Source: Mucinivorans hirudinis
GTDB lineage: Bacteria > Bacteroidota > Bacteroidia > Bacteroidales > Rikenellaceae
Assembly (NCBI GenBank): GCA_000723505.1
Contig: HG934468.1
Location: forward strand, 2,822,798 to 2,886,797
Reading direction: 5' to 3'
Length of the DNA: 64,000 bases
The notes under the pieces are model-generated. The model did no database searches. It had not been told where the DNA came from and saw only the letters and a program-made list of their open reading frames with translations. Positions 19,960 to 20,131 of the stretch are shown here, one piece after another (the stretch's first letter is position 1; each line of letters starts with the position of its first letter). The position numbers were made by a program, and so were the translations under genes.

Positions 19960-19979
19960 AGATAGCCGAAAAGGTATCT
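19960..19979 (-). promoter_or_regulatory. Attenuator-like hairpin in the metY leader
   Basis: On the minus strand AGATACC, loop TTTTC, GGCTATCT forms a short stem with one bulged base, followed directly by CTTTTTG. This is the shape of a weak intrinsic terminator between the leader ORF and metY. Its regulatory role is inferred. Confidence 0.5.
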
Positions 19980-19989
19980 TAGGGGAATA

Positions 19990-20094
19990 TTAGTGCTGCA
20001 AGCAGCACATTCGTCTGAACGAACGAGATACACCACTGCCCAAGAGAATAAGTAGGCAATTATGAAAACTTGATATGTACGCTAGCGTATCCAT
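19990..20094 (-). CDS. Putative leader peptide upstream of metY (ends RRMCCLQH)
   Basis: This 34-codon ORF begins MDTLAYISSF and ends RRMCCLQH before TAA. Its ATG lies 6 bases after the -7 box, so the transcript would be leaderless or nearly so. It has three Cys codons, two adjacent and next to Met, near the stop, a composition fitting a sensor for cysteine or methionine supply. The Cys-Cys-Leu-Gln-His codons form one hairpin (19993-20008) and an attenuator-like stem follows. Leaderless Cys-rich ORFs regulating sulfur genes are known in mycobacteria; homology is not claimed. Expression is unproven. Confidence 0.55.
   Translation of the reverse strand: MDTLAYISSFHNCLLILLGSGVSRSFRRMCCLQH
19993..20008 (-). 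promoter_or_regulatory. Hairpin at the end of the metY leader ORF
   Basis: GTGCTGC, loop TT, GCAGCAC is a perfect 7-bp stem made from the last sense codons of the leader ORF. A second stem (TTCGT, loop, ACGAA) lies at 20010-20023. A ribosome paused at the Cys codons would melt the first, which could switch downstream folding. Confidence 0.5.
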
Positions 20095-20100
20095 TTGCTG

Positions 20101-20131
20101 CAAAGGTATGACTTTTTTGCTCTTCAGCAAA
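20101..20131 (-). promoter_or_regulatory. Bacteroidota-type promoter of metY leader
   Basis: On the minus strand TTTG (20128-20131), a 19-nt spacer, then TACCTTTG (20101-20108). This is an exact match to the Bacteroidota -33/-7 consensus (TTTG, about 19 nt, TAnnTTTG). The predicted start of transcription is at about 20094-20096. A 12-bp palindrome (TACGCTAGCGTA) lies a few bases downstream. Confidence 0.78.

Follow-up and report, generated by a model that had tools for sequence, protein, structure and literature searches.

A candidate translation-sensing leader upstream of metY in Mucinivorans hirudinis and related Bacteroidota

The metY product, O-acetylhomoserine sulfhydrylase, makes homocysteine, the precursor of methionine. 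In the 64,000-nucleotide stretch of the Mucinivorans hirudinis genome that was analysed (the window), metY is preceded by a promoter match and a short open reading frame whose last codons lie in a hairpin, and the question is what this leader does. The original prediction was a translation-sensing attenuator for cysteine or methionine. With a probability of roughly two in three, the element is read here as a translation-sensing cis-regulatory leader of metY that would respond to the charging of Met or Cys tRNA. Leader-peptide attenuation is hardly described in Bacteroidota. The literature searched gives general hints only, namely sORFs in B. thetaiotaomicron that recall leader peptides (PMC7366714) and, in Flavobacterium psychrophilum, signs of attenuation ahead of amino acid operons (PMC9723704).

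The features of the locus are listed in Table 1. The promoter, the 34-codon frame ending in RRMCCLQH and the weak stem followed by CTTTTTG between this frame and metY were all found as originally described. The 7-bp hairpin claimed for the last sense codons was also present with perfect pairing, but sterically it comprises 6 bp closed by a 4-nt loop. It spans the codons AUG-UGC-UGC-UUG-CAG-CAC, about 90 nt before metY, and the DNA motif GTGCTGC-TT-GCAGCAC occurred once in the window and never in shuffles. Seven exact promoters of the TTTG-N19-TACCTTTG form occur in the window, where chance predicts 0.98. The leader AUG comes 6 nt after the -7 box, and the distance from the AUG to the Arg-Met-Cys (RMC) codons is 27 codons. 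Inside the leader, TACCTTTT was weighed as a second promoter and discarded, a proper -33 box being absent before it in the window and in locus L050. The AT-rich inverted repeat CCCTTATTAGAGGGAATAATCCCTCTGATAAGGG, at window positions 20167-20202 behind a lytic transglycosylase gene, is probably the terminator of that gene.

Table 1. Features of the metY leader locus, in window coordinates.
Feature	Position	Strand	Remarks
Promoter, Bacteroidota sigma-A, TTTG-N19-TACCTTTG	20101..20131	minus	exact match
Promoter parts	TTTG 20131-20128; TACCTTTG 20108-20101	minus	19 nt between the two
Leader ORF, 34 codons, MDTLAYISSFHNCLLILLGSGVSRSFRRMCCLQH then stop	19990..20094	minus	ATG at 20094; stop ends 19990
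Conserved core CGA-AUG-UGC-UGC (Arg-Met-Cys-Cys)	20002..20013	minus	CGAAUGUGC invariant in relatives
Hairpin GUGCUGC-UU-GCAGCAC over the Met-Cys-Cys codons	19993..20008	minus	unique in window
Weak stem AGAUA/UAUCU, then CTTTTTG	19960..19979	minus	sequence only
Weak terminator-like hairpin CUCUUUUU-GUGAUG-AAAGGAGAG with U-rich tail	19930..19961	minus	-8.4 kcal/mol
metY, O-acetylhomoserine sulfhydrylase	18596..19903	minus	TIGR01326, 662 bits against a cut-off of 495

Judged alone, the window peptide is unexceptional. It ends with one Met and two Cys codons only (M-C-C), and its Met/Cys score of 3 was reached by approximately 5% of control regions and was not significant. The total fold energy of the leader showed no excess over shuffles (z -0.56). 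Since composition and fold energy are both within chance, the case is built on comparison with relatives. An Rfam scan of the window gave no match at gathering scores and none that was meaningful at E ≤ 10 (SAM-I, T-box, other leaders), and NCBIfam holds no model for these leader peptides.

A covariance model was made from seven Dysgonomonadaceae leaders, six before metY and one before a thioredoxin-like gene, with the window excluded. Its best match in the window was at 20013-19990 on the minus strand (30.7 bits, E = 1.7e-7), which was the only match in the whole source genome at E ≤ 0.5. Among the matches of this model (R1) in other relatives, L341 is a plausible leader, though truncated, and the others inspected were weak or due to chance. 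In 200 genomes of the window's own family, mostly from one genus, the pattern CGAATGTGC-N4-8-GCAC with a matching stem was found 45 times; 43 of these copies of CGAAUGUGC with its hairpin lay 93-217 nt upstream of metY on the same strand, one was at a contig end and one was a chance match inside a gene. Stem pairs were counted by script, as the MAFFT alignment between lineages was faulty in the 3' stem arm. The stem was retained in 49 of 52 core-bearing loci, and its fifth pair covaried: the family has C-G, the window and Dysgonomonadaceae have U-A, and L322 has U-G. Across 295 genomes of the order, no inspected match other than that of the window stood before metY, so the core appears limited to some families. 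By these sequence features, a core and hairpin near the end of a promoter-proximal frame before metY, the window leader belongs to a group that is defined here as the Bacteroidota RMC metY leaders. In locus L311 (around position 1500, reverse strand), a RMCCPQHYCKSS leader with the hairpin GUGCUGC-CC-GCAGCAC precedes a TlpA/ResA-like thioredoxin-fold lipoprotein gene; thus, the core is not confined to metY.

The peptide endings were then compared. The check put forward with the original prediction, a conserved frame end before metY, was run, and a Met-Cys ending was found before metY in many Bacteroidota. In the regions ahead of 129 metY loci, short frames were scored for Met/Cys-rich ends, and a score of at least 4 was reached at 17 loci against 0.6 expected from dinucleotide shuffles, many of the loci being related so that the counts are not independent. 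Endings included SRMCMCCCCC in Pontibacter, MMQMCCCCM in Thermonema, CCGLMCCCMCCCMC in Flavobacteriales, and SRMCC and FRMCC in Dysgonomonadaceae and Tannerella-like bacteria. Consecutive Cys codons number two in the window and up to five in Cytophagales relatives. Many leaders in the window's family end in MxMRMCR. The original prediction spoke of a Cys-rich leader; Cys does lie in the core, but what is conserved is CGA-AUG-UGC with its hairpin. The family leaders are mostly Met-rich, and methionine is therefore no less likely than cysteine to be the input.

In 33 of 36 promoter-bearing loci (32 of 35 relatives, plus the window), the first AUG after the -7 box was in frame with the RMC codons and open to them, an arrangement whose chance probability at each locus is roughly estimated at about 9%. 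The RMC codons were mostly 21-28 codons from this AUG. Between related leaders, 42 of 113 changes were synonymous against 22% expected, with an omega-like ratio of 0.47, as counted in ten leader pairs that were aligned by protein and were not all independent. The family leader frame therefore looks translated. These results bear on the idea that CGAAUGUGC and its hairpin are recognised as RNA, by a protein, an sRNA or a ligand, and that the frame is incidental. Such an element would account for a CGAAUGUGC that is invariant at the nucleotide level, for the covarying stem, and for a second covarying hairpin with a UACGY loop in the family leaders. The in-frame AUGs and the synonymous excess argue against a purely RNA-level element, as do the Met-rich codons in frame ahead of the core, and we regard it as improbable.

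The Arg codon of the core was examined in the same leaders. Preceding Met-Cys, it was CGA in 38 of 38 family RMC cases (MRMC type), in a survey whose sole requirement was AUG-UGY near the stop; the family metY genes use CGA for 7.5% of their Arg residues, and the codon of the Arg after Cys is CGU, CGA, CGC or CGG. The fixed CGA codon indicates that codon counting is not the whole story. An arrest peptide or decoding block would explain both this invariance and the nearly fixed distance of the core from the AUG. In that case the ribosome would stall on the invariant R-M-C (CGA) because of the sequence itself or because CGA is decoded slowly, possibly under the influence of a small molecule, and not through the counting of charged tRNA. 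Arrest peptides usually need several residues upstream of the stall site, and here the upstream peptide is not conserved; moreover, in neighbouring leaders of the same gene there are plain Met/Cys runs and no RMC. This explanation is consequently held to be doubtful, and sensing of tRNA charging is preferred.

Relatives of the window leader supply the design that the original prediction had in view. At 18 family loci, Met/Cys-run leaders (MMMVMCMC and similar, for example MMMVMCMCNRFRRV, MMMHSMCMFRRRCRG and SMMGMMMSMRRYKRRV, each before a stop) stand before strong terminators, with energies of about -12 to -21 kcal/mol. At 15 of these 18 loci, the final codons of the leader (CGCCGGGTG and variants, as a rule 9 nt ahead of the stop) are complementary to the terminator arm ATCCGGC at p ≤ 0.03 against shuffles. 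In most cases these 18 leaders thus have the features of textbook transcription attenuators. With a ribosome stalled at the Met/Cys codons, this segment would be free to block the terminator; a ribosome that had reached the stop would cover it. Equilibrium folding gave a clean switch only in L006 and L014, as the terminators are very stable.

A SAM-I riboswitch (RF00162, 56-86 bits) was found upstream of a Met/Cys leader frame at 15 loci (L094, L097, L099, L101-L106, L108, L110, L010, L011, L013 and L116), in Cytophagales (Pontibacter, Thermonema), Flavobacteriales and some Bacteroidales. This is a two-input arrangement. The SAM-I riboswitch likewise controls sulfur genes and in these lineages lies directly upstream of the leader; it differs in being absent from the window, and the leader, a separate element, occurs both in its company and alone. 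It is conceivable, though we think it rather unlikely, that CGA-AUG-UGC and its hairpin differ in kind from codon-counting attenuators and form a module dedicated to ribosome arrest and RNA switching, which Bacteroidota would use alone or with SAM-I to sense methionine or cysteine and would have swapped repeatedly with classical Met-run attenuators before the same gene.

The window copy was examined for the same switch. It has a short translatable frame between a promoter and a biosynthetic gene. Behind the frame, a terminator-like hairpin missed in the original prediction, in DNA letters CTCTTTTT-GTGATG-AAAGGAGAG (19961-19939) followed by TTGTTTTTT / UUGUUUUUU, is better than the AGATA/TATCT stem, although its U tract is interrupted. 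In folding with the ribosome placed at set positions, the terminator probability was approximately 0.37 with the ribosome at the Cys codons or at the stop alike, so no stall-dependent switch was seen in the window. The AGAUA/UAUCU stem is a possible competitor of the terminator arm; antiterminator complementarity in the window leader is at chance level (p = 0.29). An antiterminator set by ribosome position, as found in 15 of the 18 Met/Cys-run leaders, was not found in the window, and its leader is therefore not filed as a classical attenuator. Of the predicted attenuator, then, the conserved leader frame open from its first AUG and the textbook attenuators in part of the family are supported, and a stall-dependent terminator switch in the window copy is not.

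The weak terminator and missing switch would suit a leader that is decayed or unused, perhaps brought in with a transferred metY. Identity of the window MetY reaches 79% with Paludibacter/Dysgonomonas-type proteins and is mostly 50-65% with MetYs of its own family, so the gene may have been acquired. It also counts against the preferred reading that MetY relatives at 72-79% identity mostly lack such a leader; in many of these a promoter stands within 105 nt of metY, and cysK lies upstream in some. The genus mates searched held no counterpart at this level of MetY identity, and the AUG is unusually near the -7 box, this spacing being mostly 17-33 nt in relatives. The core, hairpin, frame and promoter are nevertheless all intact, and the 27 codons from AUG to RMC are as in other loci; a relic is given the lowest probability of the explanations considered. 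A second metY-like gene of the same genome (G000:C1:892114-893397) has no such leader. Other promoter-driven TGYTGY frames in this genome were searched for, and only unrelated sites were found. L136 (G000:C1:1921142-1921266, minus strand), which lies behind an exact promoter, resembles a cobalamin riboswitch by eye.

Under the preferred reading, a translation-sensing leader, the ribosome would translate the 34-codon frame from a start at or beside the 5' end of the transcript, and near its end would have to decode CGA-AUG-UGC-UGC lying in the hairpin. A shortage of charged tRNA-Cys or elongator tRNA-Met would stall the ribosome at this point and the hairpin would stay open, with the result that transcription, or survival of the mRNA, would continue into metY. 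With a good supply, the ribosome would finish and leave, the hairpin would close, and full-length metY mRNA would drop. For the window copy, we infer the stall, its direction and the output step, which may be the weak intrinsic terminator, Rho or RNA decay.

Leader-peptide attenuators of the trp/his/leu type are alike in having a short translated frame before a biosynthetic gene with codons for the pathway amino acid near its end, and their full terminator/antiterminator design is found in relatives of the same family. They differ from the present case in its Met and Cys codons before metY in Bacteroidota, in the invariant CGA-AUG-UGC core under a hairpin, and in that the window copy has no demonstrable terminator switch. 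Mycobacterial polycysteine leaderless short frames (Canestrari 2020, as cited in PMC13236596) and cys leaders (PMC1262725) stand before sulfur genes; they have no clear intrinsic terminator, and Rho is proposed for the actinobacterial Cys leaders. The window leader is similar in its Cys codons near the stop of a small frame before a sulfur gene, its predicted start beside the 5' end, and its lack of a clear intrinsic terminator. It differs in phylum and gene, in its mostly Met-rich relatives, and in its conserved hairpin and CGA codon. Leaderless translation is at most a peculiarity of the window copy, as most relatives are not leaderless, and the parallel to mycobacteria drawn originally is thus loose. 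No paper naming an MRMCR peptide was found in a literature search from which subscription journals and preprints were mostly left out, and no priority is claimed.

Shine-Dalgarno initiation is little used in Bacteroidota. If the reading is true, these bacteria have a recurrent Met/Cys-sensing metY leader that is interchangeable with, or stacked on, SAM-I riboswitches, is testable in gut and environmental species, and shows how they couple translation to the control of sulfur amino acid synthesis.

Two further elements were noted in related leaders. About 15 nt behind the hairpin of MRMCR-ending leaders, L204, L262, L249, L234 and other family metY leaders have a second hairpin with a conserved UACGY pentaloop and a 7-bp stem in which each of the seven pairs varies in both partners (covariation score 0.63; shuffles, 0.29). 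It had no Rfam match and may belong to a structured metY leader RNA. In the Dysgonomonadaceae-type leaders L048, L049, L053, L309 and L311, a palindrome like ATACCACAAATGTGGTAT, perhaps a transcription factor operator, lies just ahead of the promoter, upstream of its -33 box.
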